From the NCBI GenBank assembly GCA_005524015.1, contig SULG01000021.1:1-46319 (forward strand): a stretch of 46,319 bases of DNA, given 5' to 3'. Below the pieces are notes generated by a model, which made no database searches, was not told the origin of the DNA, and worked only from the letters and a program-made list of their open reading frames with translations. This stretch comes from Candidatus Jettenia ecosi. Its GTDB lineage: Bacteria; Planctomycetota; Brocadiia; Brocadiales; Brocadiaceae. This document shows positions 4,961 to 36,500 of this stretch, in pieces; the stretch's first letter is position 1; the number at the start of each line of letters is the position of its first letter. The position numbers were made by a program, and so were the translations under genes.

Positions 4961-5405
4961 GAGCGTGTTATGCACTTTTGTAGGTAAAATTGTTATAATT
5001 TGGGTATGGAATCTAATCAAAACAAAAGAAAACCATACCCAAGGAAGGAAAAAGGAGCCTTCTCGAGCAATTATCGATAGCCAGACTATTCAGTCTACAC
5101 GGGAGAATCCGCCTTGATAACCTTTGTGGATCAAGGCACACAGGTGATTAGGCAAAAGAGGAAGCTAAAGAGCATGGAATAGAGCTTCAAGTGGTAAAGC
5201 TTCCCTCATGCAAAAAAAGGATTTGTACTTCTTCCCAAAAGATGGGTCATTGAGAGATCCTTTGCATGGAAGAGCAGGTTCAGAGGACTCGTAAGGGATT
5301 ATGGGCGACTGCCTGAAGTGTTGACTGGTCTTCATTTCCTTGCTTTCGCCATACTCATGCTCAGAAGATTTGCTGAGGTGATATTTCAAAGTGCATAACA
5401 CACTC
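4961..5405 (+). mobile_element. Internally deleted IS5-type element (MITE-like)
   Basis: Terminal inverted repeats of about 20 bp (GAGCGTGTTATGCACTTTTG at 4961-4980, its complement GAGTGTGTTATGCACTTTG at the right end) with TA on both outer sides as probable target duplication. The inside still encodes, with stops, a transposase C-terminus: [20 protein letters not shown] then [10 protein letters not shown], typical of IS5-family DDE enzymes. The N-terminal and middle parts are missing, so it is non-autonomous. Confidence 0.8.
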
Positions 5406-5657
5406 TAAGTAAAAAGATATATTGTGATAGGATAATAATATTGCGTGAGAAAATAGTTTTATTTGGTAACTTCTCAGGAAAGATATTTTGAAATACTGTG
5501 ACAATTACATCTACATAATTATGGAAGCATATTACCATTGATCTTTACTATGGCTCTATGCAACAAAGGTAAAACAATTGCCTTATTTGGAAGAGAAAAA
5601 CATGTCTCCATTTCTATAAGGACATGTTTCTCTGTTTATGATAAGGCAAATATCGCT
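5406..5657. other. Intergenic AT-rich region with one hairpin
   Basis: No gene seen. AGAGAAAAACATGTC at 5592-5606 and GACATGTTTCTCT at 5621-5633 can pair (one bulge), a possible terminator or small-element hairpin beside the attC. Confidence 0.5.
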
Positions 5658-5715
5658 ACCCAACGACCAAGCTCAGCCGACTGCGGCTGCGGTCGGCTGC
5701 AGCGCCTGGTTCGGC
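5658..5715 (-). repeat. Integron attC site of the ridA cassette
   Basis: Read on the minus strand, the 58 bp begin GCCGAAC (R'' at 5709-5715) and end GTTGGGT (R', fitting GTTRRRY, at 5658-5664). The inner arms GCAGCCGACCGCAG and CTGCGGTCGGCTGAGC-like sequence fold into a strong imperfect hairpin. This is the layout of the short (about 60 bp) attC class. It lies just after the ridA-like gene, in the orientation expected for a gene cassette. Confidence 0.8.
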
Positions 5716-5765
5716 GGAGGTCCGCCTACCAAGCCGCCGAGCATATCCATTCCGGTTCATTCCCT

Positions 5766-6167
5766 TCATTCCGGAAGAATGGCGGTAACCCGGATCTCGA
5801 CCCGCATCTTCGGGTCTCCGAGGGCGGCGACTCCCAGACAAGTCCAGACGGGAGCATGGTCTGGCATGTAGTAACGGAACCGCTCGGTCATGGTCTGGAC
5901 GGTCTCCTCGTCTAGCCCCACGTGGTAGGAGTTCACATGAATCACGTGCTCCCAGCCCGTGCCAGCAACAGTCAAGGTCCGCTCGACATTGCGGAACGAC
6001 TGAGCGATCTCATCCGTGATCGACTCGGGGAACTCCCAGTCATCGTTCCAGCCGCCCTGACCTGAGATCTCCAGCCGGTTGCCGATCTTGACCGCCTGGG
6101 AATAGTGGAACAGTCTCAGATTGCGCTCACCGTAACCGGGGGTGACAAAGAATTCAGGCTTGTTCAT
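5766..6167 (-). CDS. RidA/YjgF-family protein on a gene cassette
   Basis: 133 aa, the usual RidA length (about 130). Family features are N-terminal ISGQGGW, central RNVERTLTVAGTGWEHVIHVN, and the ending PVWTCLGVAALGDPKMRVEI, where Arg and the final Glu/Val strand match the reactive-enamine deaminase fold. Substrate not predictable. The ATG at 6167 is chosen over one 18 bases upstream because GGAGG precedes it (TTGGAGGACATT-ATG). It is bounded by attC (5658-5715) and an attI-like site (6216-6299). It is clearly richer in GC than its neighbours, a sign of recent capture. Confidence 0.88.
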   Translation of the reverse strand: MNKPEFFVTPGYGERNLRLFHYSQAVKIGNRLEISGQGGWNDDWEFPESITDEIAQSFRNVERTLTVAGTGWEHVIHVNSYHVGLDEETVQTMTERFRYYMPDHAPVWTCLGVAALGDPKMRVEIRVTAILPE

Positions 6168-6215
6168 AATGTCCTCCAATCGCATTTAGACGGCGATAAA
6201 CCATCTCTTCTCTTC

Positions 6216-6299
6216 GCCGAACAATAATTATACATCTGTATAAAACGGCAAAGACAGACTGTCTTCTTCACCCGGTTTATACAGACTGTATAAGCCGGA
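6216..6299 (-). other. attI-like integron attachment region (copy A)
   Basis: This is the sequence between the intI stop codon and the ridA cassette. On the minus strand it contains TATACAGTCTGTATAA, then GACAGTCTG, then TTTTATACAGATGTATAATT and ends GTTCGGC (6216-6222), the likely cassette junction. Parts of it recur at 39334-39363 (again just after an intI end) and at 43371-43414 (again just before a cassette), which is what a shared attI predicts. Confidence 0.65.
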
Positions 6300-6660
6300 T
6301 CAAAGCCTGTCAACCGGACTTCGCACACCGTGTTCTCCTTTGTTTAAAACATGGGTATAAATCATCGCCGTGCTGAAGTCTTTGTGACCCAGTGTCCCTG
6401 TATCGTGCGAATATCGTAGTCTACCTCAAGGAGATATGTAGCAAAGGAGTTGCGAAAGGTATGACAGCGACATGCTTAGCGATGTCTGCCTTGCAGACAG
6501 TCTCATTGATGGCTCTTTGCAAAATCGTTTCGTGAGCATGATGTCGCCTCTCTTCGCCGTTCTTCAGATTCTTCCAGTGGTTATCTTGGGGAAAAACCCA
6601 TTGCCAACATCACTCTTTTGGAGTGTTAGAATATTTTAGGATATTTCTGGTAAGGCCCAG
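6300..6660 (-). pseudogene. intI: Integron integrase IntI, C-terminal remnant
   Basis: Tyrosine recombinase of integrons, only the C-terminal ~120 residues, broken by a TGA and two single-base deletions. Pieces in order: KYSNTPKE-stop-CWQWVFPQ, then RRHHAHETILQRAI (matching the IntI-specific insert between the two catalytic patches), then [20 protein letters not shown] (box II HxxR), [18 protein letters not shown] with the catalytic Tyr, and GVRSPVDRL-stop. The ending YTHVLN...GVRSP is typical of IntI and unlike XerC/D. The N-terminal half is missing. It lies upstream of attI and cassette on the same strand, not divergent. Confidence 0.85.
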
Positions 6661-9428: not shown

Positions 9429-10020
9429 GATAGATTATTAAATAAATATTGTATCTTTATTAAAGACGGGAAATTTTCGAGATTATAACGGAATATAGTG
9501 ATAAAACAAGAATTTTAAAAATTCTGGAAAAAACAAGAAATAAGAATTATCAAACAAATTTTTAAACTAATTATGGCTGAAATAAGCCAACACAATATTT
9601 TCAATTTATAATTCAAATAGTATATAACTCTAATTTAGTGAATATATTAAGTAAAAATACAAACTCATATGAGAAAAACTATCAATGATGCCCATATTAA
9701 AAATCTCTAACAGAAATCATAAAATTATAATCGTAGAAATAAGTCATATCTCGCAATATAAAAGGATTTAGGAATTCTACCCACACTATTGAACATTATA
9801 CGATATTTTTTTAACTTAAGAAGGGAATAATAATTGCATCTTATTGATAAGTTTAGTTGTGATCTTATCACAGGATTTACCTGTTTATTTCACGGTATTT
9901 TGATAAAAATTTTTCACAAGGAGGTGTAAAGGATAAAAAATAAAAGCATTATTACGTATTTTTTTGCTATTGTATTTAATTTGTATAAGAGGTAGTATTT
10001 TGCCAGGAGAGGACAGGTTT
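9429..10020. other. Divergent intergenic region between the kinase-like gene and amt
   Basis: About 590 bp, very AT-rich, no gene. It must hold the promoters of both flanking units. At 9858-9872 lies the inverted repeat TGTGATCTTATCACA. At 9918-9926 there is AAGGAGGTG with no start codon at a usable distance. No sigma-54 consensus was seen. Confidence 0.5.
9858..9872. promoter_or_regulatory. CRP/FNR-like inverted repeat upstream of amt
   Basis: TGTGATCTTATCACA is a perfect TGTGAT-N3-ATCACA palindrome about 150 bp before the amt start. It resembles the half-sites of CRP/FNR-family regulators (TGTGA). The binding protein is unknown. Confidence 0.4.
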
Positions 10021-11574
10021 ATGAAATGCATTTCTAACAAAATAATTGGCATGTGGTTATTGTTAATAACATTAGGGATATTTACTTTAAATTCCGGAGT
10101 TGCTCAAGCCGGGGACCCAAATGGAGCTGAAACATATTCAGACAGCATTGGAGGTTTGAAATATGCTGTTAACTTTACATGGACATTACTAGGAGCTTTT
10201 TTAGTATTTAGCATGCAGGCGGGATTCACCTTTTTAGGTGGATTTTTAAGGCAGAAGAATATGCTGGGTTATATGGCTCACTGCTTCATTGATTCTACTC
10301 TTGGGGCAGTTGTTTTTTATCTTTTCGGATTTGCCTTGATGTTTGGCGGCTCGAAGCTGGTACCCGGACTTGATTATGGCAATTCTTTTATTGGATGGGA
10401 TGGATTTTTCCTGAGTGGAAGGTCGTACGATGTTCAAACAATTATGTTCTGGCTCTTCCAGATGGTATTTGCAACAAAAACTGTTTCAATTATTGCGGGC
10501 GCTGTAGCGGAGAGAATGAAATTTGTGCCTTATCTTATTTATAGTTGCCTTATGTGCGGCTTAATTTATCCTATTTACGGGCATTGGGTTTGGGGCGGAG
10601 GCTGGCTAGGCTCGCTTCCGATTGGAGCCGGAGTAAAAGATTTTGCGGGTTGTGCTACGGTACATACCGTGGGAGGTATTATGGCGCTGGTCGGAGCGTG
10701 GGCATTGGGTCCAAGGAATGGAAAGTATAATCCTGACGGTTCGCCGAATGCCATTCCAGGTCATAATCTTGTATACGTTGTCATAGGTACCCTTATTCTT
10801 GCCTTTGGTTGGTTTGGTTTTAATGCAGGCAGCACCTTAGCAGCGACAGATTTACGTATGTCTGTGATTGCAAGCAATACTTTTATAGCTGCTTCAACAG
10901 GCGCCTCTATTATGATATTTTTCACGTGGGCAAGGATGGGTGTTGTGGACTTGCCATTTGTTTGTAATGGCGCCTTAGCAGGATTAGTAGCTATTACAGC
11001 GCCTTGCGCCTATGTGGCGCCATGGGCAGCCGCAGTAATTGGACTTCTCGCTGGCTTAGCGATGAGATGCGCCTTTTGGTTTGTAGAAGCTAAGATGAAA
11101 ATCGATGATCCGCTCGGCGCAGTAGCTGTACATGCAGCCAACGGTATCTGGGGTATGATTGCTGTGGGTATTTTTGCGGATGGCACCTATGGTGGCGTGA
11201 GTGGTTTGATTACCGGTTCGGGTTCACAATTATTGGCACAATTCATTGGAACGTTAGTCGCTATAGGATGGTCATTGGCATGGGGTTGCGCCGTATTCTT
11301 CTCATTAAAATATACGATAGGTATACGGGTATCCGATCTTGTAGAATCTGATGGAGTAGATATCCACATCCATGGTTCTCCTTGTTACCCTGTTGAGCCG
11401 GAATTCATTGCTCCCGTGATAGGAGAGGAAGAGGTTGATATACAACAGGAAAAGAGACAAGCATCTTTACTTGAGGAAGCATTAAGCAGGGACGCTGACA
11501 GGGAAAAGATATACTCAGATAAACTCGGCCGATGGGTATATGCCAGACTTAAAACGGATACGAAGAGACGATAA
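10021..11574 (+). CDS. amt: Ammonium transporter Amt (copy 1), long C-terminal tail
   Basis: Membrane ammonium channel/transporter, 517 aa. The ATG at 10021 follows AGGAGAGGACAGG and starts a signal peptide (residues 1-30, ending GVAQA), as in AmtB precursors. Eleven membrane segments follow. The conserved Asp207 (DFAG), pore twin histidines His215 (ATVHTVGG) and His371 (VAVHAANGIWG), and IDDPLGA are present. The tail after residue 440 is about 70 residues longer than usual, charged and Glu/Arg-rich. A glnK follows after 53 bp, the classic sensor pairing. Confidence 0.94.
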   Translation: MKCISNKIIGMWLLLITLGIFTLNSGVAQAGDPNGAETYSDSIGGLKYAVNFTWTLLGAFLVFSMQAGFTFLGGFLRQKNMLGYMAHCFIDSTLGAVVFYLFGFALMFGGSKLVPGLDYGNSFIGWDGFFLSGRSYDVQTIMFWLFQMVFATKTVSIIAGAVAERMKFVPYLIYSCLMCGLIYPIYGHWVWGGGWLGSLPIGAGVKDFAGCATVHTVGGIMALVGAWALGPRNGKYNPDGSPNAIPGHNLVYVVIGTLILAFGWFGFNAGSTLAATDLRMSVIASNTFIAASTGASIMIFFTWARMGVVDLPFVCNGALAGLVAITAPCAYVAPWAAAVIGLLAGLAMRCAFWFVEAKMKIDDPLGAVAVHAANGIWGMIAVGIFADGTYGGVSGLITGSGSQLLAQFIGTLVAIGWSLAWGCAVFFSLKYTIGIRVSDLVESDGVDIHIHGSPCYPVEPEFIAPVIGEEEVDIQQEKRQASLLEEALSRDADREKIYSDKLGRWVYARLKTDTKRR

Positions 11575-11600
11575 TTTTCACCGTGATTTAATGTAATTAG

Positions 11601-11966
<366 letters not shown>

Positions 11967-11993
11967 ACGAAATGATATAAATTGAATTTTTCT

Positions 11994-12036
11994 GCTGATG
12001 TTGTCTCTATTCACGTGAGACAACATCAGCTATTTT
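11994..12036 (+). terminator. Rho-independent terminator after glnK copy 1
   Basis: A perfect 14-bp stem: GCTGATGTTGTCTC at 11994-12007 pairs with GAGACAACATCAGC at 12017-12030, loop 9 nt, followed by TATTTTTC. It ends 16 bp before the start of the second amt, so amt copy 2 needs read-through or its own promoter. Confidence 0.85.
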
Positions 12037-12052
12037 TCATGAAGGACTAAAA

Positions 12053-13327
12053 TTGAGACAATACTTTTTTGTATTCACATTATTCATCGGATTACTGATT
12101 TTTCTGGTTAAAGGCGCCTTCGCAGGAGATCCGGGAGGCACCCGAACCTATTCTGATAGCATATTAGGATTAAAATTTTCTGTAAATTTTGCATGGACAT
12201 TGCTCTGCGCCTTTTTAGTCTTTAACATGCAGGCAGGCTTCACTTTTCTCGGCGCTGGTTTTCTTCAAAAGAAAAATACACTCAATTATCTGGCGATGAG
12301 CTTTGCAGATTTTTGTATTGGATCAATTGTATTTTGGTTATTTGGTTTTGCATTGATGTTTGGTGGCTCAAAGCTGGCGCCTGGTCTCTCCTGGGGAAAT
12401 CAATTTATTGGTTATAGTGGATTTTTACTTATCGGAGATTCCTATGACGTATCTGCATCTGTACTTTGGATATTCCAGATGATGTTTGCCGCCTCTGCTT
12501 GCACAATTGTAACTGGCGCTGTTGCAGAGAGAATTAAGTTTCATATACACATTATTTATAGCGCATTCTTATGCGGCGTGATCTATCCTTTGTTTGGACA
12601 TTGGATGTGGGGTAAAGGATGGTTAGAATTGCTGCCGTTTGGAGTAGGCGCAAGAGACTTCGCAGGTTCAGGTGTCGTACACGGAATGGGTGGTTTGATT
12701 GCTTTTGTCGCAGCATGGATGATAGGTCCCAGATTTGGGAAATATAATCCGAATGGTAGTCCGAATGTAATACAAGGCCACAATATGGTATATATTGTGA
12801 TTGGGACCCTTATTTTAATTTTTGGGTGGTTTGGTTTCAATGCAGGCAGCACGCTTGCTGTCACAGAATTAAGGATAGCTGTTGTTAGTGTAAACACCTT
12901 CTTATCTGCTGTTGCCGGCGCTATTACCCTTCTCTATTTTTCCTATTTTAAAACAACAAAATCCGACGTTATAATGACTTGTAACGGGGCATTAGCAGGT
13001 TGTGTAGCAATTACAGCATCCGGAGCTTATGTACCTCATTGGGCTGCAATTATAATTGGGGTTATTGCTAGTTTAATCACAAGAACTTCGCTCTATTTTG
13101 TCGAAAGTAAACTAAAGATCGATGATCCTGTTGGCGCCATATCTGTACACGGAGCAAATGGAATCTGGGGTTTACTTTCGGTTGGAATTTTCTCTGATGG
13201 GACGTATGGTGGTGTGAGAGGTTTAATCACCGGTTCAGGCTGGCAATTGTTAGCTCAATTTATTGCTTGTGTAACATTAATAACCTGTGTGCCTTGTGGT
13301 TGGTTTTTTGTTTTTCTTTGCACTTAA
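12053..13327 (+). CDS. amt: Ammonium transporter Amt (copy 2), C-terminal tail cut off
   Basis: 424 aa, TTG start after GAAGGA; signal peptide to about residue 24 (KGAFA). Very similar to copy 1: Asp202 and His210 in RDFAGSGVVHGMGG, second pore His in ISVHGANGIWG. The frame ends in the last membrane helix with FFVFLCT-TAA. After the stop, the same frame resumes as FFGLRVPVNVERSG and GASCYPG-TGA (to 13414), matching the tail of copy 1. One extra base and one missing base (T runs near 13310-13340) would explain this. The tail is needed for Amt gating and GlnK docking, so the product may be impaired, unless this is a sequencing error. Confidence 0.85.
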   Translation: MRQYFFVFTLFIGLLIFLVKGAFAGDPGGTRTYSDSILGLKFSVNFAWTLLCAFLVFNMQAGFTFLGAGFLQKKNTLNYLAMSFADFCIGSIVFWLFGFALMFGGSKLAPGLSWGNQFIGYSGFLLIGDSYDVSASVLWIFQMMFAASACTIVTGAVAERIKFHIHIIYSAFLCGVIYPLFGHWMWGKGWLELLPFGVGARDFAGSGVVHGMGGLIAFVAAWMIGPRFGKYNPNGSPNVIQGHNMVYIVIGTLILIFGWFGFNAGSTLAVTELRIAVVSVNTFLSAVAGAITLLYFSYFKTTKSDVIMTCNGALAGCVAITASGAYVPHWAAIIIGVIASLITRTSLYFVESKLKIDDPVGAISVHGANGIWGLLSVGIFSDGTYGGVRGLITGSGWQLLAQFIACVTLITCVPCGWFFVFLCT

Positions 13328-13414
13328 ACGTTTTTTGGGTTAAGGGTGCCAGTAAATGTAGAACGTTCTGGTATTGATATTTATGAACATGGGGCAAGTT
13401 GTTATCCTGGATGA
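13328..13414 (+). pseudogene. Disconnected C-terminal tail of amt copy 2
   Basis: In frame with the upstream gene after its TAA, it encodes FFGLRVPVNVERSGIDIYEH and GASCYPG, then TGA. It corresponds to IGIRVSDLVESDGVDIHIHG and SPCYP of copy 1. The conservation suggests the loss is recent or an artefact. Confidence 0.8.
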
Positions 13415-13902
13415 TAATTTAAAAATCTAAATAAGACACATCCTCACAACAGATAATTTTAGAAATGCTATGAGGATTAACCGTTTTATAACCTAACCTC
13501 TATAATAGGTTATGTTAAAGTATATGGTTAAATTTTTAGAGCTTTTCATAAGTAAGTCCTGTTACTCTTCTCTTCTTCCTTTCCATTGTTTTAATTCCTT
13601 GTATCTCATCTTTATTATAACTGTTTTGGTTTTAATCAACCATTTAAAGATTCAGCAAATATTGTGCAACACAATAACGATTAACTGTAAATAAGTATTA
13701 TGTTGTTTAATTATAATTGCATATAATATTATTTTTTTAAATATAATCTTTAGGTATAAAATTTGTTAGTTATATCTATAAAACTTAATTTTTTAAAATA
13801 ATTATTACCATTGTTCAACATACTATAGATTCTAGCCTGATCAACTCAGGTATTAGTTAATGGTTTTTGCCTCATACTAACTATAGAACTGGAGGCTTAC
13901 AT
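13415..13902. other. AT-rich intergenic region between amt copy 2 and the cytochrome gene
   Basis: No gene supported. ATAACCTA (13488-13495) and TAGGTTAT (13506-13513) form a hairpin, and TCCTCA...TGAGGA flanks a weaker one just upstream; neither has a T-run. The remainder is nearly pure A/T and probably holds the promoter of the cytochrome gene. Confidence 0.45.
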
Positions 13903-14847
13903 ATGTTTAACCATAAATTTCTCTTCTGTTTTGCGATACTACCTCTTATTCATGTGCTCGTAGCTTTTTCTGCATTCTCACAGAATTATGTAATCAACGG
14001 GGTTCTGGAAGAAAGTGATCTTAAAATAGAAATTAAAGATAGTATTGTTCGCAAAGAATCTTTAACCATTAAAGATCGTCGGGTTTATATTCAGGTAGTA
14101 CTCGACGAGGGTGCAAGGAATATTGCAAATCATAAAAGATATAAAGAGATGTTTTATCTGCTTCCGAAGGAAGTAGTTTATGACGATGGAAGTAAATGTA
14201 TTTTTTATTATAAAGATAATACAGAAATCGAGATAGGAAAGGTAAAAAGTTTTTTAGGTTTTATGCCCTATATCACTTTAGCCGAAGGTGCGATGATAGT
14301 AAGCTCCCCTACCGATGCTAAGGTATCGATTTCACGAGCTAACAACTATCAGGATATTCCAAAATCAATAATACACTCTGAACAGTGTATGGAAGCAACT
14401 TTACGTAAGAAGTGCGGCCAGTGCCATATATTGGAATATATATTTTCACACAAAAAGTGGATTGAGGAAGATATCCTGCATGCATTTAATAGGCTGCAGA
14501 TGGAAAAGGAAGAAAGGCTTACTGAAGATGAACAGAAAATAATTGATTTGTTCAAAAAATACCAAAAAGGCGAAGTCGATAAAGAAAAGCTTGCTGAATT
14601 TACAACACTAAAACAAATCGGAAAAACTGACATAGTTAATTTTACAAAAGACATTTATATGAATAATTGCGTACCTTGCCATAATCCATCAAAGATAACA
14701 GACGTTTCTCTGCTCTACTCAAAACGGAGATGTAAAAGCATCGTTGAACGAATAAAGGAAAAAGAACCATCTCTCTTTTTACAAAAAGATATGGATAGTT
14801 TAGCCAGCTATTTATGGGAAATAAAGCTCAGGCCATATAAGAATTAA
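13903..14847 (+). CDS. Secreted diheme c-type cytochrome
   Basis: 314 aa from the ATG at 13903 (GGAGG 9 bases upstream), with a signal peptide to about residue 26 (FSAFS). The N-terminal ~150 residues are beta-rich and unrecognised. Two heme sites follow: C171GQCH with LEYIFSHKKW, and C256VPCH with NPSKITDV. The W..D..H.F.RL..E....LT.DE pattern after the first site is typical of small cytochrome c domains in anammox and delta-proteobacterial proteins. Redox role, partners unknown. It sits inside the amt/glnK cluster on the same strand, which is unusual. Confidence 0.85.
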   Translation: MFNHKFLFCFAILPLIHVLVAFSAFSQNYVINGVLEESDLKIEIKDSIVRKESLTIKDRRVYIQVVLDEGARNIANHKRYKEMFYLLPKEVVYDDGSKCIFYYKDNTEIEIGKVKSFLGFMPYITLAEGAMIVSSPTDAKVSISRANNYQDIPKSIIHSEQCMEATLRKKCGQCHILEYIFSHKKWIEEDILHAFNRLQMEKEERLTEDEQKIIDLFKKYQKGEVDKEKLAEFTTLKQIGKTDIVNFTKDIYMNNCVPCHNPSKITDVSLLYSKRRCKSIVERIKEKEPSLFLQKDMDSLASYLWEIKLRPYKN

Positions 14848-15016
14848 ATTCATAATTTTCATGAAAGGAGGTGATGAAACGACATGCCTTACATGATGGT
14901 CTTTTAATGAGAATTGTTTCGTTCCATGGTATTGATGTTATCATAGCTTTCTAGTAGCAGTAAAGTGGCAGCAGTAGTAAGAGGGTATTAACTTACAACT
15001 TTAAAAGGAGACGACA
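14848..15016 (+). promoter_or_regulatory. Leader of amt copy 3 with strong Shine-Dalgarno and tiny frames
   Basis: AAAGGAGGTGATG at 14864-14876 is a near-complete complement of the 16S rRNA 3' end, yet the next real gene starts 140 bp later. Two very small frames are possible: ATG 14874-14954 (26 codons, too close to the Shine-Dalgarno) and ATG 14884-14907 (7 codons, MPYMMVF, good spacing). A leader peptide is possible; the amt itself has AAAAGGAG at 15003-15010. Confidence 0.4.
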
Positions 15017-16357
15017 ATGAGAAAAGAAGCTATTCTAGGCATTTCGTCGATTTTCGCATTATCGATGATAGCGCTTTTTGCATCAGAAGCGATAGCACAA
15101 GATGCGCCAAAAATTGACACAGGGGATAATGCATGGTTGCTTGCATCCGCAGCGCTCGTTTTAATCATGACACCAGGTCTAGCCTTGTTTTATGGAGGTA
15201 TGGTAAGAGCCAAGAATATGGCGAACACCCTTTGGTTAAGTTTTATTGTTATTTGTATTATAAGTATACAATGGATACTCTGGGGCTATAGCTTGTCTTT
15301 TGCGCCAGCGAACTGGTTTATCGGTGGCCTTCAATGGTGTGGACTTGGGGCAGGTATCGTTGGACAAGCGCCGAGTGATATTTACGCTACAACAGTGCCA
15401 CATCTCTCGTTCATGATGTTTCAATGTATGTTTGCTATTATTACCCCTGCGCTTATGACAGGCGCTTTCGTAGAACGATTTAAATTTAATGCATGGCTAT
15501 TATTCATACCCTTATGGGCAACTGCAGTATATGCGCCAATAGCACATTGGGTATGGGCTATAGACGGCTGGCTGCTAAAATTAGGTTCATTAGACTTTGC
15601 TGGCGGAACGGTTGTCCATATCTGTTCAGGAGCCTCAGCGCTGTCCCTGATTTTATTTGTCGGAAAACGGAAAGGATATCCAAAAGAGGTAAAGCCTCCT
15701 CATAATCTTCCCTTTATGATGTTAGGCACCGGTTTACTATGGTTTGGCTGGTTTGGTTTCAACGCTGGTAGCGCAGTTGCTGCCAATGGATTAGCTGCAA
15801 GCGCTTTCGTTGTCACCAATACAGCTGCAGGCGCTGCAGGGTTTACCTGGTCTGTTATGGAATGGATCTACCATAAGAAACCCACCTTACTTGGCGTTTG
15901 TTCAGGCGCAGTTGCTGGTTTGGTTGCTATTACACCAGCATCAGGCTTTGTAGGTCCTATGGCATCGATTGCAATAGGAGTCGGCGCCGGAGTAATATGT
16001 TTCTATTGTGTAACAAGGATGAAAAGAGCTTTAGGTTATGATGATGCCCTTGATGTTATTGGCATCCATGCAATGGGTGGAACATGGGGTGCCTTTGCAA
16101 CAGGCATCTTTTGTAGCACTTCTGTAAATCCTGCTGGCTTTGACGGGGCAATCTATGGTAATATTGCCCAACTGGGAAAACAATGGGCAGGTATTCTGGC
16201 TGCATGGGGATGGGCTTTTGGAATTACTTCACTTTTAGCCTGGTTTGTAAATGCGGTAATTGGCTTCAGGCCGACAGATGCAGAAGAAACCGCTGGCATG
16301 GATATTACCCAACACAAAGAAATCGCTTACCATTTTTATGAAACAGAACAGGCTTAA
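15017..16357 (+). CDS. amt: Ammonium transporter Amt (copy 3), classical AmtB type
   Basis: 446 aa with signal peptide (residues 1-27, EAIAQ) and the canonical start IDTGDNAWLLASAALVLIMT then PGLALFYGGMVR. Eleven membrane helices. Pore histidines His201 (GGTVVHICSG) and His351 (IGIHAMGGTWG), FGWFGFNAGSA, and the standard C-terminal tail ending DAEETAGMDITQHKEIAYHF are intact. It is more like bacterial AmtB than copies 1 and 2, so the cluster holds two Amt lineages. glnK copy 2 follows after 95 bp. Confidence 0.95.
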   Translation: MRKEAILGISSIFALSMIALFASEAIAQDAPKIDTGDNAWLLASAALVLIMTPGLALFYGGMVRAKNMANTLWLSFIVICIISIQWILWGYSLSFAPANWFIGGLQWCGLGAGIVGQAPSDIYATTVPHLSFMMFQCMFAIITPALMTGAFVERFKFNAWLLFIPLWATAVYAPIAHWVWAIDGWLLKLGSLDFAGGTVVHICSGASALSLILFVGKRKGYPKEVKPPHNLPFMMLGTGLLWFGWFGFNAGSAVAANGLAASAFVVTNTAAGAAGFTWSVMEWIYHKKPTLLGVCSGAVAGLVAITPASGFVGPMASIAIGVGAGVICFYCVTRMKRALGYDDALDVIGIHAMGGTWGAFATGIFCSTSVNPAGFDGAIYGNIAQLGKQWAGILAAWGWAFGITSLLAWFVNAVIGFRPTDAEETAGMDITQHKEIAYHFYETEQA

Positions 16358-26852: not shown

Positions 26853-27323
26853 ATGAAATCTCTATCAAATCTGAATCTTGTAGCTATTATCCTTTATTGT
26901 TCTGCGGGCATATTCATCGGCCTAAGTGTCTACACGTTTTATTATGCGCAAGGCGCATCTTATCTCTCAAATGAACCTAAGGCTTGTGTCAATTGCCATA
27001 TCATGCGCGAGCAATACGATGGCTGGCAAAAGGCAAGTCATCATGCAGTTGCAACATGCAACGACTGCCATATACCGCACAGGTTTATACCAAAATATTT
27101 AGCAAAGTTAAAAAATGGATTCTGGCATTCGAAAGGTTTTACCTTTCAGGATTTTCATGAACCAATTCGGATTCATCCGAAAAATCGTATCACATTACAA
27201 AAGAATTGCCTGTATTGTCATGGGGAATTTGTAAGTCAAATCGCTGCTTACCCGGGGGATAATCGGCGAATGTTAGATTGTATCCCTTGTCATAGAAACG
27301 TCGGTCATGGTCCAACACAATAG
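26853..27323 (+). CDS. nrfH: NrfH-type tetraheme quinol dehydrogenase
   Basis: 156 aa NapC/NirT/NrfH-family cytochrome. One N-terminal membrane anchor (residues 9-28) and four CXXCH sites at 45 (CVNCH-IM), 69 (CNDCH), 119 (CLYCH) and 143 (CIPCH). Met51 after the first site suits the unusual heme-1 ligation of NrfH. It takes electrons from quinol and passes them to NrfA, the next gene, 78 bp downstream on the periplasmic-equivalent side. Confidence 0.92.
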   Translation: MKSLSNLNLVAIILYCSAGIFIGLSVYTFYYAQGASYLSNEPKACVNCHIMREQYDGWQKASHHAVATCNDCHIPHRFIPKYLAKLKNGFWHSKGFTFQDFHEPIRIHPKNRITLQKNCLYCHGEFVSQIAAYPGDNRRMLDCIPCHRNVGHGPTQ

Positions 27324-27401
27324 TATTTGATAGGTTACATTTATTATGATTATGGGCTGGATAATAGAACTGAGGATAGATTGAGGAGGAGGAGTAAGAA
27401 T

Positions 27402-28820
27402 ATGAATTGGGAAAATATAAAGATTACTTATCTGCTACTAGTCATTGTAATTGCGGTAGCAACGGTAAGTGTTATCCTGCTATTAGAGAACGTTTCACAG
27501 CGTAAGAAAGAAGCGAGACAACATGTATTTCGCGTTGTGGAAATAACGGAGGATACCATTGATCCCGTTATCTGGGGGAAAAATTATCCACGTCAATACG
27601 ATGGATATCGGCGCACTGTAGATGAAGAACGGACCCGACATGGCGGGAGTGAAGCTTTTAACAAATTAGATGAAGACCCCTACTGGCGTGTGATTTTTAA
27701 TGGTTATGCCTTTGGTATAGACTATCGGGAAGACCGGGGCCACGCTTATATGCTATCTGATCAGGACATGACGGAGCGACTCAAAGTCGCTGCACAGCCC
27801 GGGGCATGTTTACATTGTCATTCATCCGTTATCCCTGCTTACCGCGAGGCAGCTATCAAGGCTGGCGTATCTGCAGACGACTCCCACCGGCAAGAACAAA
27901 TCATGAAAGGTTTTGAAATCGTTTGTGCTATGCCATACCAGGATGCCCGTAATATGGTTTCTCATCCTGTATCCTGTATAGATTGTCATGATTCAGAAAC
28001 CATGCAACTTCGTGTCACCCGGCCGGGCTTTCTCAATGCTATCCAGGCATTAGCCAAAGTAGATTATCCATTACCGCATTTACCGAGTATCGAGCGTTGG
28101 CGTAAAGATGGGCGTAAAGATGAGTATGATGTGAATACCATGGCAACACGGCAAGAAATGCGCTCATTCGTTTGTGGTCAATGTCACGTCGAGTATTATT
28201 TCAAGGGTGAAGGTAAGCTTTTGGTCTATCCATGGCAAAAAGGACTAAGAGTAGAACAGATCGAGAGCTATTATAATGAAACAAGTTTCAAAGATTGGAT
28301 ACATAAAATCAGTGGCACACCCGTGCTAAAGGCACAACATCCGGAATTTGAGATGTGGAGCCAGGGAATCCATGCCCGCAGCGGTGTTGCATGCGCAGAT
28401 TGCCACATGCCTTATAAACGTGAAGGTGCAATCAAAATCAGCGATCATCACGTACGAAGCCCATTACTCAATATTGATACTGCATGCCAAACCTGCCATC
28501 ATTTTAGCGAAGCAGAACTTAAAGCTCGTGTTGAAGTAATTCAGGACCGTACAAAAGCCCTCATGATCCGGGCAGAGGAGGCAGTTGTTGCCCTCATTCA
28601 GGATCTACAAAAGGCAAAAGAATTTGGAATATCTGGCGAACAACTAAAGTCGGCACAGGATTTACAACGCAAAGCACAGTGGCGTTTGGATTTTGTCGCA
28701 GCAGAAAACTCAATGGGCTTCCATGCTCCGCAAGAGGCCGCACGTATTCTTGCAGAGACAATTGATTATGCCCGGCAAGGCCAGCTTGAGGTAATGAAAT
28801 TGCAACCTGTAACACAATAA
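27402..28820 (+). CDS. nrfA: Pentaheme cytochrome c nitrite reductase NrfA (CXXCH type)
   Basis: 472 aa from the ATG at 27402 (GAGGAGGAGG 9 bases before). Reduces nitrite to ammonium. An N-terminal hydrophobic segment (9-29) serves as signal or anchor. Five hemes: CLHCH 136, CIDCH 192, CGQCH 258, CADCH 331, CQTCH 362. The catalytic heme is CXXCH instead of the commoner CXXCK. Active-site Arg in CIDCHDSETMQLRVTRP, Tyr in CHVEYYF, and His in QGIHARSGVACADCHMPY are present, as is the KAQHPE.E motif near the calcium site. Adjacent to nrfH. Confidence 0.95.
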   Translation: MNWENIKITYLLLVIVIAVATVSVILLLENVSQRKKEARQHVFRVVEITEDTIDPVIWGKNYPRQYDGYRRTVDEERTRHGGSEAFNKLDEDPYWRVIFNGYAFGIDYREDRGHAYMLSDQDMTERLKVAAQPGACLHCHSSVIPAYREAAIKAGVSADDSHRQEQIMKGFEIVCAMPYQDARNMVSHPVSCIDCHDSETMQLRVTRPGFLNAIQALAKVDYPLPHLPSIERWRKDGRKDEYDVNTMATRQEMRSFVCGQCHVEYYFKGEGKLLVYPWQKGLRVEQIESYYNETSFKDWIHKISGTPVLKAQHPEFEMWSQGIHARSGVACADCHMPYKREGAIKISDHHVRSPLLNIDTACQTCHHFSEAELKARVEVIQDRTKALMIRAEEAVVALIQDLQKAKEFGISGEQLKSAQDLQRKAQWRLDFVAAENSMGFHAPQEAARILAETIDYARQGQLEVMKLQPVTQ

Positions 28821-30824: not shown

Positions 30825-32090
30825 TCAGGTTTGAGTTTCGATTACCCGATCAAAATACCATTTTTTTGTCAACATGTTATAGGAGATCTGACAAGTAAGA
30901 TTATTACTGATAACGACACAGTATCGTTTCTTTGATACACCTTGAATGGTTTGATCTACCCATTCATTGACAACTTCCCTTATACGAAAAATTCTTCCAC
31001 GTAATTTGAAGCTATACGGAACCGCATAATTAATCGTCAGGTCGTTAACAGGTACCCATATCGAAGATTTCACCAAATGAATCAGGGTAAATACAGATGA
31101 AAAACACCAGAGTGCAATACAAGCAATGGAAAAACATATCGAGATTATAATAAGATATTGCCCTCCAAATAAGTTAGATAATTGAGTGGTACTATAGGCA
31201 TATAACCCCAGAGCAAAGGCAACCTCCCAATATCCTACAGTAAACACAAGACCATCATCGCAGAAAGCTTGTTTTCTTATAGCCAGGATAACCAGAAACG
31301 GTAACCACCATAAACCTACAGACCAAAAAAACAGAGAAAATCCCTTTAAAAAAGGAAGGAAATCTGTGAATGGCCCATGCATGATATGTATGTGCTGATA
31401 GAGTGCGATACCGGTAAGCGCTGTTAATGCTGCTGCTCCCATGTCCATCCAATAAGGTGACAGCGCTGCATCGCTACTCAATTGATAAAATACCAGTCTT
31501 AACATAATGAATACCGCGAAGATGAGGTACAGACATGCTCCCACAGACCATAAGGCAAATGAAAATAATTGGATAAACGTTACGTGCTGCATTGCATGTT
31601 CTGCGATAGTTATACCAAGGAAAGCTGTCGATTGCGTGCCCACTATGGTAAAAAACCAACCACCATGCAAAATATCCTCAATCTTCCTATCTTCAGATTT
31701 TCGGTGGAGGAATAAAATGCTAAATGAGGAGAAAGAGGCGCTTAGCCAAAGACTAATGGCTACATACCAGAGTATATGAGCTGCTGTAGAGAAATGAAAT
31801 ACTTTAGATAAACAAATGCCAATAAGATTAATTGCACTAACAATGGTAAAGAAATAAAAACTTTTCTCTGGATTGAGCAATTCATTTAAGGAATTCTCAT
31901 AGAATAGCGCAATCTGTGTTGCCTTAAAAATAATTGCAAAGAAGAATATGGCCAGGCTTGTCACAAAAAAGTATGGGACAATGGTCTTGAATCCATGTAA
32001 TGACGAAATAGATACAACCATTATAGTGGCCATGACAGCAGTAAACCATCGGGTATCCATCGAATAGGTTGCGACCTTTAATAAATTCAT
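30825..32090 (-). CDS. TDT/SLAC1 (TehA-like) channel with DUF6504-like C-terminal domain
   Basis: 421 aa. About ten hydrophobic helices over residues 10-340 in the pattern of the TehA/SLAC1 anion-channel family (e.g. YSMDTRWFTAVMATIMVVSI at the start). The last ~78 residues are soluble: PYSFKLRGRIFRIREVVNEW...KKWYFDRV. That pattern matches the small protein at 3190-3444 (PVWFLWSNREYRIKEITYTW...LVWTLHSI). Last gene of a nitrate/nitrite-type operon, so it may pass nitrite, nitrate or another anion (inference). A terminator separates it from narK. Confidence 0.75.
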   Translation of the reverse strand: MNLLKVATYSMDTRWFTAVMATIMVVSISSLHGFKTIVPYFFVTSLAIFFFAIIFKATQIALFYENSLNELLNPEKSFYFFTIVSAINLIGICLSKVFHFSTAAHILWYVAISLWLSASFSSFSILFLHRKSEDRKIEDILHGGWFFTIVGTQSTAFLGITIAEHAMQHVTFIQLFSFALWSVGACLYLIFAVFIMLRLVFYQLSSDAALSPYWMDMGAAALTALTGIALYQHIHIMHGPFTDFLPFLKGFSLFFWSVGLWWLPFLVILAIRKQAFCDDGLVFTVGYWEVAFALGLYAYSTTQLSNLFGGQYLIIISICFSIACIALWCFSSVFTLIHLVKSSIWVPVNDLTINYAVPYSFKLRGRIFRIREVVNEWVDQTIQGVSKKRYCVVISNNLTCQISYNMLTKKWYFDRVIETQT

Positions 32091-32263: not shown

Positions 32264-33463
32264 TTAAGTAGTGCCCAGCGCTTGTTTGTTTGAGTTTGAC
32301 AAAGTCTTTTCTTCCATAAAGGACAGACACATGAGGCATACAAGAGATACGAAGATAAATCCCAAGTAATAATTATCGGTGTAATCCTTAATTGTACCCA
32401 GTATTATCGGTAGGAAAAAGCCTCCGAGGCCTCCGGCTGCTCCTACCAGACCGCCTACAGAGCCTGTATCTTTTGGAAAATTTTCTGCTACTAATTTATA
32501 CACAACGCCATTCCCAATACCGAGACAAGTTCCCATGATATAGAACACAACGAGTGAAGTCACTAACGATACATTCAAATTAAGGAATACCGTTATGACA
32601 AGCACGACTAAGGTAAGGGCTATTGTTAACTTTCTTCCATTAAACTTATCTCCCAAATATCCTCCCAGGATACGGGTAAATGACGAAAGAAATACAAATA
32701 TTGATGTATAGCTACCTGCTTTTACAGGACTAATGCCATAAAAGTCAATCAGGTAAGATGGCAACCATATTGAGAAACATACAAAAAACCCAAAAAACAT
32801 GAAGTAAATTAAGCAGAAAACCCAGGCTAAACCAGACGACTTATATACCTTTAGTTTCTCTCTGAGGGTTGGAACCTTTACATTTGCCGGCCTTGGTGCA
32901 TTAGAGGTAAAAAACCAATACACAAATGCCATTAAGAGTAAAGGGATTGCATAAATGATAAACGCTTTATGCCATCCTAAAGATTCAGCGATAAATGGCG
33001 CTCCAAAACCAGAAATAGCAGTACCGGCATTTCCCACACCATAAACCCCTAATGCAAGCCCTTGCTTTTTCTTTGGGTACCATTCTGAAACATGGGGAAT
33101 TCCAACGGCAAATGATGAACCGATTAAGCCAAAAAAGAGCCCGCCCACTAATAAAAAGCCATAACTATGTGCGAAACCAGTTAAAAGCAAAGACACAAAA
33201 CCAAACAGAAGCATGATAGTAAAAACAAGTCTTCCACCAAATTTATCCGTCACAATACCCATAGGGATCTTTGCCAGAGAACCGAGCAATACAGGCATTG
33301 CAAGTAATAACCCCACCGATGTGGAAGACAAATTAAACTCTTCCTTAAAGTAGATTGCTAAGGGAGCGAACAAGGTCCAACCAGCAAAACAGAGGGCAAA
33401 TGCCACTGTTGCAAGTATCATTACCTTGGTATTCCCGTTCGGTGTTTGTACAGATTCACTCAT
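32264..33463 (-). CDS. narK: Nitrate/nitrite transporter of the NarK family (MFS)
   Basis: 399 aa, 12 membrane helices. Seen: FAGWTLFAPLAIYFKEEF, the MFS loop GIVTDKFGGR, GNAGTAISGFGAPF, and the nitrate signature GIGNGVVYKLVAENFPKDTG followed by GLVGAAGGLGGFFLP. Transports nitrate and/or nitrite; direction is not predictable. GGAGG lies before the ATG. Downstream of a PAS protein, a CXXCH-containing sensor and a response regulator on the same strand. Confidence 0.93.
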   Translation of the reverse strand: MSESVQTPNGNTKVMILATVAFALCFAGWTLFAPLAIYFKEEFNLSSTSVGLLLAMPVLLGSLAKIPMGIVTDKFGGRLVFTIMLLFGFVSLLLTGFAHSYGFLLVGGLFFGLIGSSFAVGIPHVSEWYPKKKQGLALGVYGVGNAGTAISGFGAPFIAESLGWHKAFIIYAIPLLLMAFVYWFFTSNAPRPANVKVPTLREKLKVYKSSGLAWVFCLIYFMFFGFFVCFSIWLPSYLIDFYGISPVKAGSYTSIFVFLSSFTRILGGYLGDKFNGRKLTIALTLVVLVITVFLNLNVSLVTSLVVFYIMGTCLGIGNGVVYKLVAENFPKDTGSVGGLVGAAGGLGGFFLPIILGTIKDYTDNYYLGFIFVSLVCLMCLSFMEEKTLSNSNKQALGTT

Positions 33464-33526: not shown

Positions 33527-33922
33527 TTATAAACAGAGCGATGTCTGAATAAATTCAAATTCATTTTTCACCTTTAAAGGACATTTATAGAGGCCCTCTG
33601 TAACAAGAGTACTACTTTGTCTTATAAAGAATAACTTACCACTCTTTGTTTTCATGAGGGTATAGAAGCCATTTACCTGACCATCCCTGAACAGCATTGA
33701 GAGTGTTTTCTCGTGGTCAAAAGGATGCGCATATAATTCATTTATCTTTTTCCCAATTACATCATCAGGCGAGGCAAACCCAAAAAGTCGCGCACCCGCA
33801 CTATTGATATGTATGATGACCCCATCATAGGAAGGCTCGTACTCATACCATCCTTTTACATCCTGCACATCGGGAGATGTTTTTGATTCATCCTTTGCTG
33901 ATGATATATTTTTGTTGTTCAT
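33527..33922 (-). CDS. Single-domain PAS protein
   Basis: 131 aa, soluble. One PAS fold over about residues 25-110: GVIIHINSAGARLFGF, DDVIGKKINELYAHP, FYTLMKTKSGKLFFIRQSST. No output domain is attached, so it would act by binding a partner, perhaps the membrane sensor 37 bp upstream. The ligand is unknown. Confidence 0.85.
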   Translation of the reverse strand: MNNKNISSAKDESKTSPDVQDVKGWYEYEPSYDGVIIHINSAGARLFGFASPDDVIGKKINELYAHPFDHEKTLSMLFRDGQVNGFYTLMKTKSGKLFFIRQSSTLVTEGLYKCPLKVKNEFEFIQTSLCL

Positions 33923-33959
33923 AGATACCTCCTGTTAATAATCCTTTTTAATGCCTTCA

Positions 33960-35366
33960 TTACCAGGTTACTGCCGTTTTTTCTGATGATTGTTTTGCAT
34001 CGGTTTTTACCGCCTCTTTACCCTCATCTTCTTTGTGATTATTTATGGTATTCTCAGATTTTAAGACAGGAATTTGCTCTTTAAATTTAGAGATATTACT
34101 CTTGATGAAATCTTCATCCCTTTTTATCACAATAGACCCAAACACCTCTAAAGGGTTATAAACTCCGTATTTTTGTTCCCGAAGATACCCACGCTCTTTT
34201 CTTACTTCATAACCATCCAGAATAGCTATAACAAATCCAACCAGGAAGACAGTCGTTACACCCAGTAAGGCTTTCTGTGGTAAAGACAGGCCTTTTAACA
34301 TATACCCCGCATTTAACTTCCGGTACATCAAGGTAGCCATAACAAATGCCGGAACGATTATCACCATCATAAGTGACTTTACCATTGAATTGATATTGTT
34401 TATGGTACTGAGCGCCTCGTCTGCATCGATCTCCACGATTAATCCCATATTTAAGTCCTTAACCCAGCTCCAGGCGCCCACAACCTTAAATCCGTCATAA
34501 TCCATATATCCTTCCAAATCGTTTCCACTTGTTTTTTGCGTAATACACTTCTTTACCCCTTTTGTTATCAGATTGGTATCTGGGTCAACAACCTTATGGC
34601 ATGTCTTGCAGGTATCACCGCTATTTTCTTTTATATGATCTGAAAATCTCGATTGCGTAATCATCGTACCATCTTTATTTACCAAATAAGCTTCCCCGGT
34701 TTTCCCTAGCACATCATTCCGTATACCATTATTCAGAACAGACGCATCCATCCATACCAGGACAGCGCCAATTACATCGTAATTTTGCCCCTTGATTGGA
34801 TAAGACATAAACAGAGAAGGGAACTCTTTATCTGTTTTGTCCTGCATATCATTTATAGGAAAATGGATTACATCAGAAATATACGTTTTACCGTCATACA
34901 GAGTTTCCTGAATATTACGGAATGATTTTTCCTTTATAATATTCATGCCCAGCATGGATTTTTCATTTTCAGTTGTAGCCTGAATTACCCCTGCTGCATC
35001 ACAAATAAATATTCCTTTATAATTGTAGTCTGCCTTTGTGCACTCTAATTGCGTTTTTAACCTTAAATATTCATGTTCATCTTTTCCCTTTAAGAGACTC
35101 ACAAAATCCTCGCTACCATGGATAAACAATGCACTCTGAATGGTGTCTGCAATAGCCCTGGCATGCGACTTTCTTTCTTCCCACATGTGTGTAAGGAGAT
35201 CTTTTTGTTCTTTTACGATGCCTTCCAGATTCCTTTTAACACTCTGTTTTAATTCGGCGCTTGCTTTTGGAAATGCAAGCATCCTAAACAAAACAAGGGG
35301 AAATAATCCAAAAAATATGAAAGTAACAATAACGATAACAATGCGTTCTTTAAATATTCGTATCAT
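33960..35366 (-). CDS. Membrane Cache sensor with a CXXCH heme motif in the outer domain
   Basis: 468 aa. Membrane helix 1 (about 8-30), an extracytoplasmic double-Cache-like domain (40-325: GIFICDAAGVIQATTEN, GEAYLVNKDGTMITQS, GAWSWVKDLNMGLIVEIDAD), then helices at about 331-348 and 366-384, and a charged cytoplasmic tail. C253KTCH sits between the two halves, followed by Cys274; a covalent c-type heme is likely. No HAMP, kinase or methyl-accepting domain is present, so a signal must be passed to separate proteins. Between the response regulator and PAS genes. Confidence 0.85.
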   Translation of the reverse strand: MIRIFKERIVIVIVTFIFFGLFPLVLFRMLAFPKASAELKQSVKRNLEGIVKEQKDLLTHMWEERKSHARAIADTIQSALFIHGSEDFVSLLKGKDEHEYLRLKTQLECTKADYNYKGIFICDAAGVIQATTENEKSMLGMNIIKEKSFRNIQETLYDGKTYISDVIHFPINDMQDKTDKEFPSLFMSYPIKGQNYDVIGAVLVWMDASVLNNGIRNDVLGKTGEAYLVNKDGTMITQSRFSDHIKENSGDTCKTCHKVVDPDTNLITKGVKKCITQKTSGNDLEGYMDYDGFKVVGAWSWVKDLNMGLIVEIDADEALSTINNINSMVKSLMMVIIVPAFVMATLMYRKLNAGYMLKGLSLPQKALLGVTTVFLVGFVIAILDGYEVRKERGYLREQKYGVYNPLEVFGSIVIKRDEDFIKSNISKFKEQIPVLKSENTINNHKEDEGKEAVKTDAKQSSEKTAVTW

Positions 35367-35406
35367 ATTTCACCTCTTCTACGTTAAATTCTCCAAAGTA
35401 TATAAA

Positions 35407-35787
35407 TTATTCTGTGTCTTTTTTTGTAAATTCAGCAAGACATGCTTCTATATCACTGGTACTAAAAGGTTTTGTAATTACCTTATTTGCACCTTTTTTG
35501 ATAGCCTCTTTCACGACATCCTCATCTGTATAGGCGGTAATAATAACAATATGAGAATTAACTCTTATCCCTTTCATTTGATCTAAGAATTCAATACCAT
35601 CCATTCCCGGCATCTTCACATCTAATAAAATAATTGAATAACAGCACCTCTTAATCTCTTCTAATGCATCGAAACCATTATTTACCGCCTTTGTCTCAAA
35701 CCCCAGATCAGCCAGGGAATTCGCCAATACCTTTCTATATCCTTCTTCATCATCAACAATCAATATTCTTCTTGCCATCATTTCCAT
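35407..35787 (-). CDS. Single-domain response regulator (CheY-like)
   Basis: 126 aa receiver domain only. Asp12/Asp13 (VDDEEG), phosphoacceptor Asp56 (ILLDVKMPG), Thr84 (IITAY) and Lys106 (ITKPF) are all in place. No DNA-binding output domain. First gene of the operon leading to narK; the kinase that feeds it is not in the window. Confidence 0.92.
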   Translation of the reverse strand: MEMMARRILIVDDEEGYRKVLANSLADLGFETKAVNNGFDALEEIKRCCYSIILLDVKMPGMDGIEFLDQMKGIRVNSHIVIITAYTDEDVVKEAIKKGANKVITKPFSTSDIEACLAEFTKKDTE

Positions 35788-36500
35788 AACTCTTCTATTT
35801 ACTGAAATACCATTATTTGTAAAGATACTTATGCAACCGATATGCCTATAAAAATATAAAACATTTAGATTGCTCTAAGCAGTTTGTATTTTTATAGTTA
35901 CGAGAAATAAAATTTTTTCTCAAATAATTTTTAACAATGTAACTGCAACCAAATTGTTTCATTTGAAAATCTCTGTAATAATCGTAAGTGTTTAATATGA
36001 AAAGATATAAGAGAAATAATAAAAATTTAATAAGTGGAAACAATTTGGTTGCAGTTTAAGAATTAAGGAATAGTGTATGATTTGATTTATACCGCGCACA
36101 CGGGAGAGGAGAAATTAAAACAAAACATCTTCTTTTTCCTTGCTATTACTAACTAAACGCGATTCCAATTGTAAAAGCAGAAATGAGACGCTTTGATAAA
36201 GATTTCAGCATGATCTATCGTGCATCTGGAATTATTATGGCGTGAGGATATTTTGAGAGAATTCTGGTAACTATTCAGCATGATTTTATGGACTACCATA
36301 TATGGCATAGAATGGCCAAACCAGATAAATTACCCACATGTTGTGGTGCTATATATAGACAAAAATGACGAATCGAGAGTTTTTTGCCATATATAGTGTT
36401 TTTTGTTAAAACTACCTGAGTAGTTACGAATTCTGAGGAAAAGACAAAACCAACACTTACCGTATTTTCCTCAGGCTAGAAAATCACTTGACAATAAGAA
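35788..36500. other. Intergenic region upstream of the response regulator
   Basis: About 700 bp, AT-rich. It contains a 116-bp MITE (35941-36056, listed separately). From 36060 to 36500 no gene or family was recognised. The promoter of the narK operon should lie in 35790-35940. Confidence 0.45.
35941..36056. mobile_element. 116-bp MITE with perfect 20-bp inverted repeats
   Basis: AACTGCAACCAAATTGTTTC (35941-35960) is repeated as its exact complement at 36037-36056. The 76-bp interior is AT-rich and non-coding. No transposase with such ends is present in the window. The element lies about 150 bp upstream of the response regulator gene. Confidence 0.75.

Follow-up and report, generated by a model that had tools for sequence, protein, structure and literature searches.

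The operon on the minus strand of the window (the whole 46,319-nucleotide stretch of Candidatus Jettenia ecosi DNA that was analyzed) encodes, in order, a receiver-only regulator, a dCache membrane protein containing C253KTCH, a PAS-only protein, NarK, and a SLAC1-type channel, and is best explained overall by sigma-54 two-component control combined with a split, kinase-less accessory receptor that would feed back on it (probability about 0.6). According to this reading, the histidine kinase HK828 would phosphorylate the NtrC-type activator (bEBP), both encoded at G000:C79, and the activator would bind two upstream sites, UAS1 and UAS2, and fire the -24/-12 promoter in front of the five genes. 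The products of the first three genes (REC, dCache-TMT, and PAS) would constitute a kinase-less receptor in pieces, probably assembled as one complex, which probably reads the extracytoplasmic state of nitrogen oxyanions, NO, or redox and probably feeds back on HK828, for whose phosphate the orphan receiver and the activator's receiver would compete; the transporter may also be affected directly. The CXXCH motif of most lineages carries a probable c-type heme, which may tune or extend the signal and appears to have been lost in several lineages. The cassette, the promoter with its enhancer pair, the linked or co-occurring kinase and activator, the swapping of modules, and the variable heme motif are read directly from the sequence.

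Gene cassette and sigma-54 promoter

The first operon gene encodes the receiver-only response regulator (35407..35787, minus strand, as are all five genes; PF00072, E 3.8e-28) and is followed by the genes for the 468-aa dCache membrane protein with a C-terminal TMT segment (33960..35366; PF02743 dCache_1, E 3.4e-10) and the PAS-only protein (33527..33922; PF13426, E 9.2e-10), three open reading frames whose positions had been given correctly in an earlier note on this DNA. The operon continues with a NarK-type nitrate/nitrite MFS transporter (32264..33463; TIGR00886, E 2.4e-68, with a score of 230.9 bits that lies under the 311.7 cut-off) and ends with a fifth gene missing from the earlier list, a SLAC1/TDT-family anion channel (30825..32090; PF03595, E 8.8e-36), the intergenic gaps being 40, 37, 63, and 173 bp. 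The proposal that the sensor genes form one operon with the transporter is borne out by comparison, with the three-gene order being found in two anammox families and kept adjoining a nitrogen-oxyanion transporter, and with a NarK gene following the sensor genes in 40/40 cassettes compared. The SLAC1/TDT channel occupies the equivalent position in most A-type cassettes, and the five-gene order extends from Brocadiaceae as far as the Scalindua-like family f4, a label inferred from relationship. Among named organisms, the closest relatives are Candidatus Brocadia and Loosdrechtia, and orthologues of the Cache protein were found in anammox families f1 and f4 only (E≤1e-60, in a sample of 392 genomes of the phylum). 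A histidine kinase, as expected of a classical linked two-component system, was sought in the window operon and none is present, and the domain search likewise found neither a HAMP nor a kinase domain in the Cache protein, as had been described.

Several further features of the window were observed. NarK of the window's genus (perhaps including G012, which sits on a long branch) falls in the clade formed by NarK of the B-type cassettes, which lack a receiver (100% SH-aLRT), while the Cache, PAS, and receiver proteins are of the A type, indicating an apparent transporter swap. Three Amt-type ammonium transporter genes lie at 9964-16357, the second and third being separated by a gene for a CXXCH-bearing protein (13867-14847), and an NrfH/NrfA-like multiheme cytochrome pair, recognized by eye, is encoded close to the operon on the plus strand (26853-28820).

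The receiver gene is preceded at a distance of 60 bp by a -24/-12 element, AGGCATATCGGTTGCA (35832..35847, minus strand), with the GG-N10-GC pattern and the sigma-54 consensus. A putative enhancer, UAS1 (GAAACAATTTGGTTGCAG; 35943..35960, minus strand), lies 114 bp upstream of this element, and its inverted copy, UAS2 (36037..36054, plus strand), lies 94 bp further upstream; the exact matches to this site in the 3.86 Mb genome are these two only, both at this operon. The -24/-12 element is conserved in 25 A-type loci in the form AGGYAYANNGGTTGC, mostly ~55-200 bp before the called receiver start, and the two conserved sites upstream, GAAACNAWTTGNTTNCAG, form an inverted pair with a spacing of 113-116 bp from UAS1 to the promoter and 93-97 bp from UAS2 to UAS1 (21 loci tabulated). 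UAS scores of at least 11 occur by chance at a rate of 24 per 1.6 million positions, and controls with the reversed UAS pattern gave zero matches in every genome searched. The promoter and the inverted pair precede the cassette from Brocadia to Scalindua-like genomes, while B-type cassettes, which are without the receiver, have neither the -24/-12 element nor the UAS pair. In three genomes (G024, G029, and G030), the receiver, the -24/-12 element, the kinase, and the activator are jointly missing and only a remnant of UAS2 is left. Control of the operon by sigma-54 and a bEBP is very likely, and since the operon sits behind the conserved sigma-54 promoter, the sensor genes are themselves part of the regulated operon. 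A palindrome is also present between UAS1 and the promoter in most family f1 cassettes (window ~35868-35892, minus strand; ACGCTTAGAGCAATCTAAGCGTTTTTT in L064). Its arms have changed in a paired manner in Brocadia (CTTGG...CCAGG), and it may be another binding site or a hairpin resembling a terminator.

Kinase, activator, and orphan receiver

HK828 is a dCache-HAMP-PAS-HisKA-HATPase kinase of ~828 aa and bEBP is an NtrC-type activator of ~465 aa; they were found in 27 and 28 of the searched genomes, respectively, always as a single copy per genome. In the window genome, the pair is encoded at G000:C79:5154-9052, unlinked to the operon, with the activator (5154-6542) matching PF00158 (sigma-54 interaction domain, 1.2e-70), PF00072 (receiver, 7.7e-27), and PF02954 (Fis-type HTH, 3.1e-6), and the activator orthologues carry GAFTGA. 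The kinase and/or the activator adjoins the cassette at four loci (L046, L058, L064, and L076). Across genomes, HK828/bEBP co-occur with the promoter (22/25 genomes vs 3/31; Fisher 2e-9), as they do within each of the two families (1e-3 and 3e-3), all of these figures being inflated by relatedness. The three promoter-bearing genomes in which HK828/bEBP were not found (G014, G018, and G046) are 83-92% complete, and among the three genomes counted as having HK828/bEBP without the cassette promoter is G009, where the sites lie elsewhere. In G009 (L210:6543-6771) and in G016 (L208:5230-5460), two genomes from which no cassette was recovered, the same UAS pair and a -24/-12 site stand directly behind the bEBP gene. 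The sites in G009 precede an operon of the type II DMSO-reductase family with the subunit make-up of nitrite oxidoreductase, which would make it a nitrite oxidoreductase (NXR)-like operon, and those in G016, whose contig ends just after them, precede a gene cut by the contig end, with an N-terminus resembling the start of the G009 operon. This placement connects the sites both with this activator and with nitrite/nitrate metabolism. A conserved -24/-12 promoter was also sought before HK828, where no conserved site was found. The statement that the sensor set has no known output module stands for the operon but not for the genome, which encodes HK828 and the NtrC-type activator elsewhere, and signal transfer, earlier held to be unexplained, would largely be accounted for by a conserved sigma-54 promoter, paired enhancer sites, and the unlinked kinase and NtrC-type activator.

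The window receiver retains the complete phosphorylation set (DD...D56...T...K), and among the receivers of its own genome it is closest to that of the bEBP at G000:C79 (47%, 2.2e-27; the next match has 4.8e-19). The alpha1 helix, through which receivers dock to kinases, is 64% identical to that of bEBP receivers vs 42% elsewhere in the domain, while the same comparison for other receivers gives 30% in the docking helix vs 33% elsewhere. The peak of the likeness in the docking helix points to the kinase, and the chances that HK828 is the kinase serving the orphan receiver appear even. G032, G056, and G057 have the activator but a missing or decayed receiver gene, and the receiver is therefore not essential. 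These losses would also fit a receiver that is a decaying remnant or serves as a phosphate sink, accompanied by a Cache/PAS pair that is a functionless passenger, an explanation made very improbable by the intact phosphorylation site of the window receiver, the gene order kept from Brocadia to Scalindua-like genomes, and the many residues that are invariant among the Cache and PAS orthologues.

Receptor modules and the CXXCH motif

The TMT segment of the Cache protein (~residues 350-400; 34170..34320, minus strand), recognized by profile homology, comprises a third hydrophobic helix and the basic stretch GYLREQKY. A profile of 40 Cache tails matches a family of free-standing proteins of 177 aa (E 3e-7 and 3e-8, Z=5000), with reciprocal genome matches of 3e-6 and 4e-6. 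This one-helix protein occurs in a second cassette, at G000:C68:5928-11146 (L144), and in its relatives, where the order is HPP > dCache-HAMP-PASx3 > TMT > receiver > FocA/NirC, located behind another kinase/NtrC pair; a conserved -24/-12 promoter was sought before this FocA/HPP cassette and no conserved site was found. The best matches of the window PAS protein in its own genome are PAS domains of the dCache-HAMP-PAS proteins of the second cassette, and the best paralogues of the window Cache protein are the dCache domains of these same proteins. A dCache-PAS protein is split into separate dCache and PAS proteins at L211 and L212, and TMT is fused to a PAS domain in family f4, so that across genomes TMT exists free, dCache-fused, or PAS-fused. 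The three helices of the Cache protein would place the TMT tail outside, whereas the TMT-PAS fusions suggest that it lies inside. Since the same modules are swapped between fused and separate forms, they can be expected to work as one unit, which is rather probable for the receptor parts encoded here. At L060, the dCache-PAS and TMT genes have a second copy, which adjoins a B-type NarK cassette.

The same association with transporters could instead reflect post-translational gating of NarK/SLAC1 by the three proteins, by analogy with PII on AmtB, rather than control of gene expression. The sensor parts are stably linked to transporters in two cassettes (NarK/SLAC1 and FocA/HPP), the sensor set is without an output domain, and the receiver and PAS proteins are small and soluble, all of which would suit such gating. 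However, the docking-helix likeness of the receiver to the bEBP receiver points to a kinase, and sensor and transporter are not strictly co-inherited, because NarK of the window genus, and not its sensor, belongs to the B-type clade; direct gating is accordingly considered unlikely.

The putative c-type heme attachment motif C253KTCH (34596..34610, minus strand, from the translation) lies in the membrane-proximal half of the dCache domain, in the loop before GYMDYDG...KVVGAWSW. The window protein aligns through residues 37-312 with positions 12-240 of the PF02743 profile at 40.3 bits, under the 45-bit Pfam cut-off, and the dCache_1 profile, run over both halves, matches 14/14 members (best 1.4e-14). 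In a check for the double PAS-like fold, no solved structure matched the Cache protein by sequence, and an AlphaFold model from six sequences was poor (pLDDT 38.6) and was set aside. CXXCH is kept in 29/40 Cache orthologues from two families, which argues against a chance motif, and the close Cache paralogues read in the window's genome have the corresponding loop without it, so that it represents a derived, retained trait. Insertion of the motif as a cytochrome fragment, as in sCache_heme, was considered and rejected, the paralogue loop being of similar length with no insertion apparent by eye.

In the remaining 11/40 orthologues, mostly all three heme-binding positions are replaced (e.g., YRSYFK, FRTFHK, DAMSYK, HKTRYT, or a deletion); usually both cysteines go together, a single one being retained in only one case (CRGSYK). 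Conservation of the motif in homologues, raised beforehand as a point that could refute the heme reading, is thus broad but not universal, and its distribution needs at least five changes on the tree. Loss is the simpler and best reading of these changes because the motif is present in both families and both cassette types; the cassette and promoter persist where CXXCH is gone, and the heme is apparently dispensable for the system. Anammox bacteria are rich in c-type cytochromes and the domain is extracytoplasmic, which makes a c-type heme plausible, and it is quite likely that the window protein binds one. That the bound heme acts as an NO or redox sensor is more doubtful. The earlier suggestion that a CXXCH in an extracytoplasmic Cache domain could carry heme therefore holds, but not as the core of the sensor, with 11/40 orthologues lacking the motif and their operon intact. 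An explanation centered on the heme, in which the dCache protein would mainly sense NO or redox state through a c-type heme, with PAS and the receiver as a relay, could draw on the motif as a derived trait and on a heme Cache protein with signaling architecture that binds NO and releases it slowly (PMC12889525). It is nonetheless improbable, given at least five apparent losses while cassette and promoter were kept and the lack of a match to the known heme-Cache family PF11845. In the PAS protein, residues ~64-75 carry a near-invariant ELYAHP(F/Y/N)DHEKTLSML, whose two histidines are other residues, e.g., Asp or Arg, in paralogous PAS domains and could form a cofactor or metal site.

Significance and comparison with known systems

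Little is known about the regulation of nitrite/nitrate handling in anammox bacteria, whose transporters show high redundancy, and no description of this circuit was found among open PMC papers. In K. stuttgartiensis, both narK genes are expressed at ~100 RPKM and are unchanged between nitrite- and ammonium-limited growth, so the signal of the operon is not simply nitrite limitation, while the focA_2/HPP neighborhood (KSMBR1_1070/1075), presumably the same locus as the FocA/HPP cassette described here, is induced by nitrite limitation (PMC7438415). The enhancer/promoter code, a specific kinase/activator pair, and a split receptor together amount to a concrete, testable NarK regulatory circuit, and the same code stands in two genomes next to the kinase/activator pair and before a nitrite-oxidoreductase-like operon or its apparent first gene. 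A double Cache domain with an optional c-type heme, if true, would be a second, independent entry of heme into a Cache sensor, for which the natural heme-less orthologues are built-in controls. More tentatively, the dCache, TMT, PAS, and receiver modules, which can be fused or split freely, may make up a family of kinase-less "kit" receptors in anammox bacteria. Each member would accompany a nitrogen-oxyanion transporter and act back on its own dedicated pair of kinase and NtrC-type activator; in one branch of the family, a c-type heme would have arisen independently in a double Cache domain and then disappeared about five times.

The closest known kind to the window Cache protein is sCache_heme (DUF3365, Tll0287, PF11845; GSU0582/GSU0935), an extracytoplasmic Cache domain with CXXCH and often no fused output (PMC12889525). 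The window protein likewise has an extracytoplasmic Cache-superfamily domain with CXXCH and no fused output, but its domain is a double Cache (dCache_1) instead of a single one, 0/14 Cache orthologues match the PF11845 profile at E≤1, and the motif, conserved in 99% of sCache_heme proteins (PMC12889525), has been lost repeatedly here. Membership in sCache_heme fails because of the missing profile match, the double Cache, and the variable motif. The FocA/HPP cassette at G000:C68 resembles the window operon in having dCache, PAS, TMT, and a receiver beside nitrite transporters and its own kinase/NtrC pair, but its dCache is fused to HAMP and three PAS domains, its TMT is separate, and it has no CXXCH. 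Extracytoplasmic sensing adjoining narK genes is also known from NarX/NarQ-NarL/NarP, whereas the operon described here has no NarX-type kinase, sigma-54 instead of NarL-type control, and a split receptor. With NtrBC, AtoSC, and ZraSR, the system shares a kinase and a receiver-AAA+-Fis activator, a -24/-12 promoter, and paired upstream enhancers; it differs in that the genes for the kinase and activator mostly lie apart from the target operon and in that the operon encodes a second, kinase-less receptor set together with an orphan receiver resembling that of the activator.
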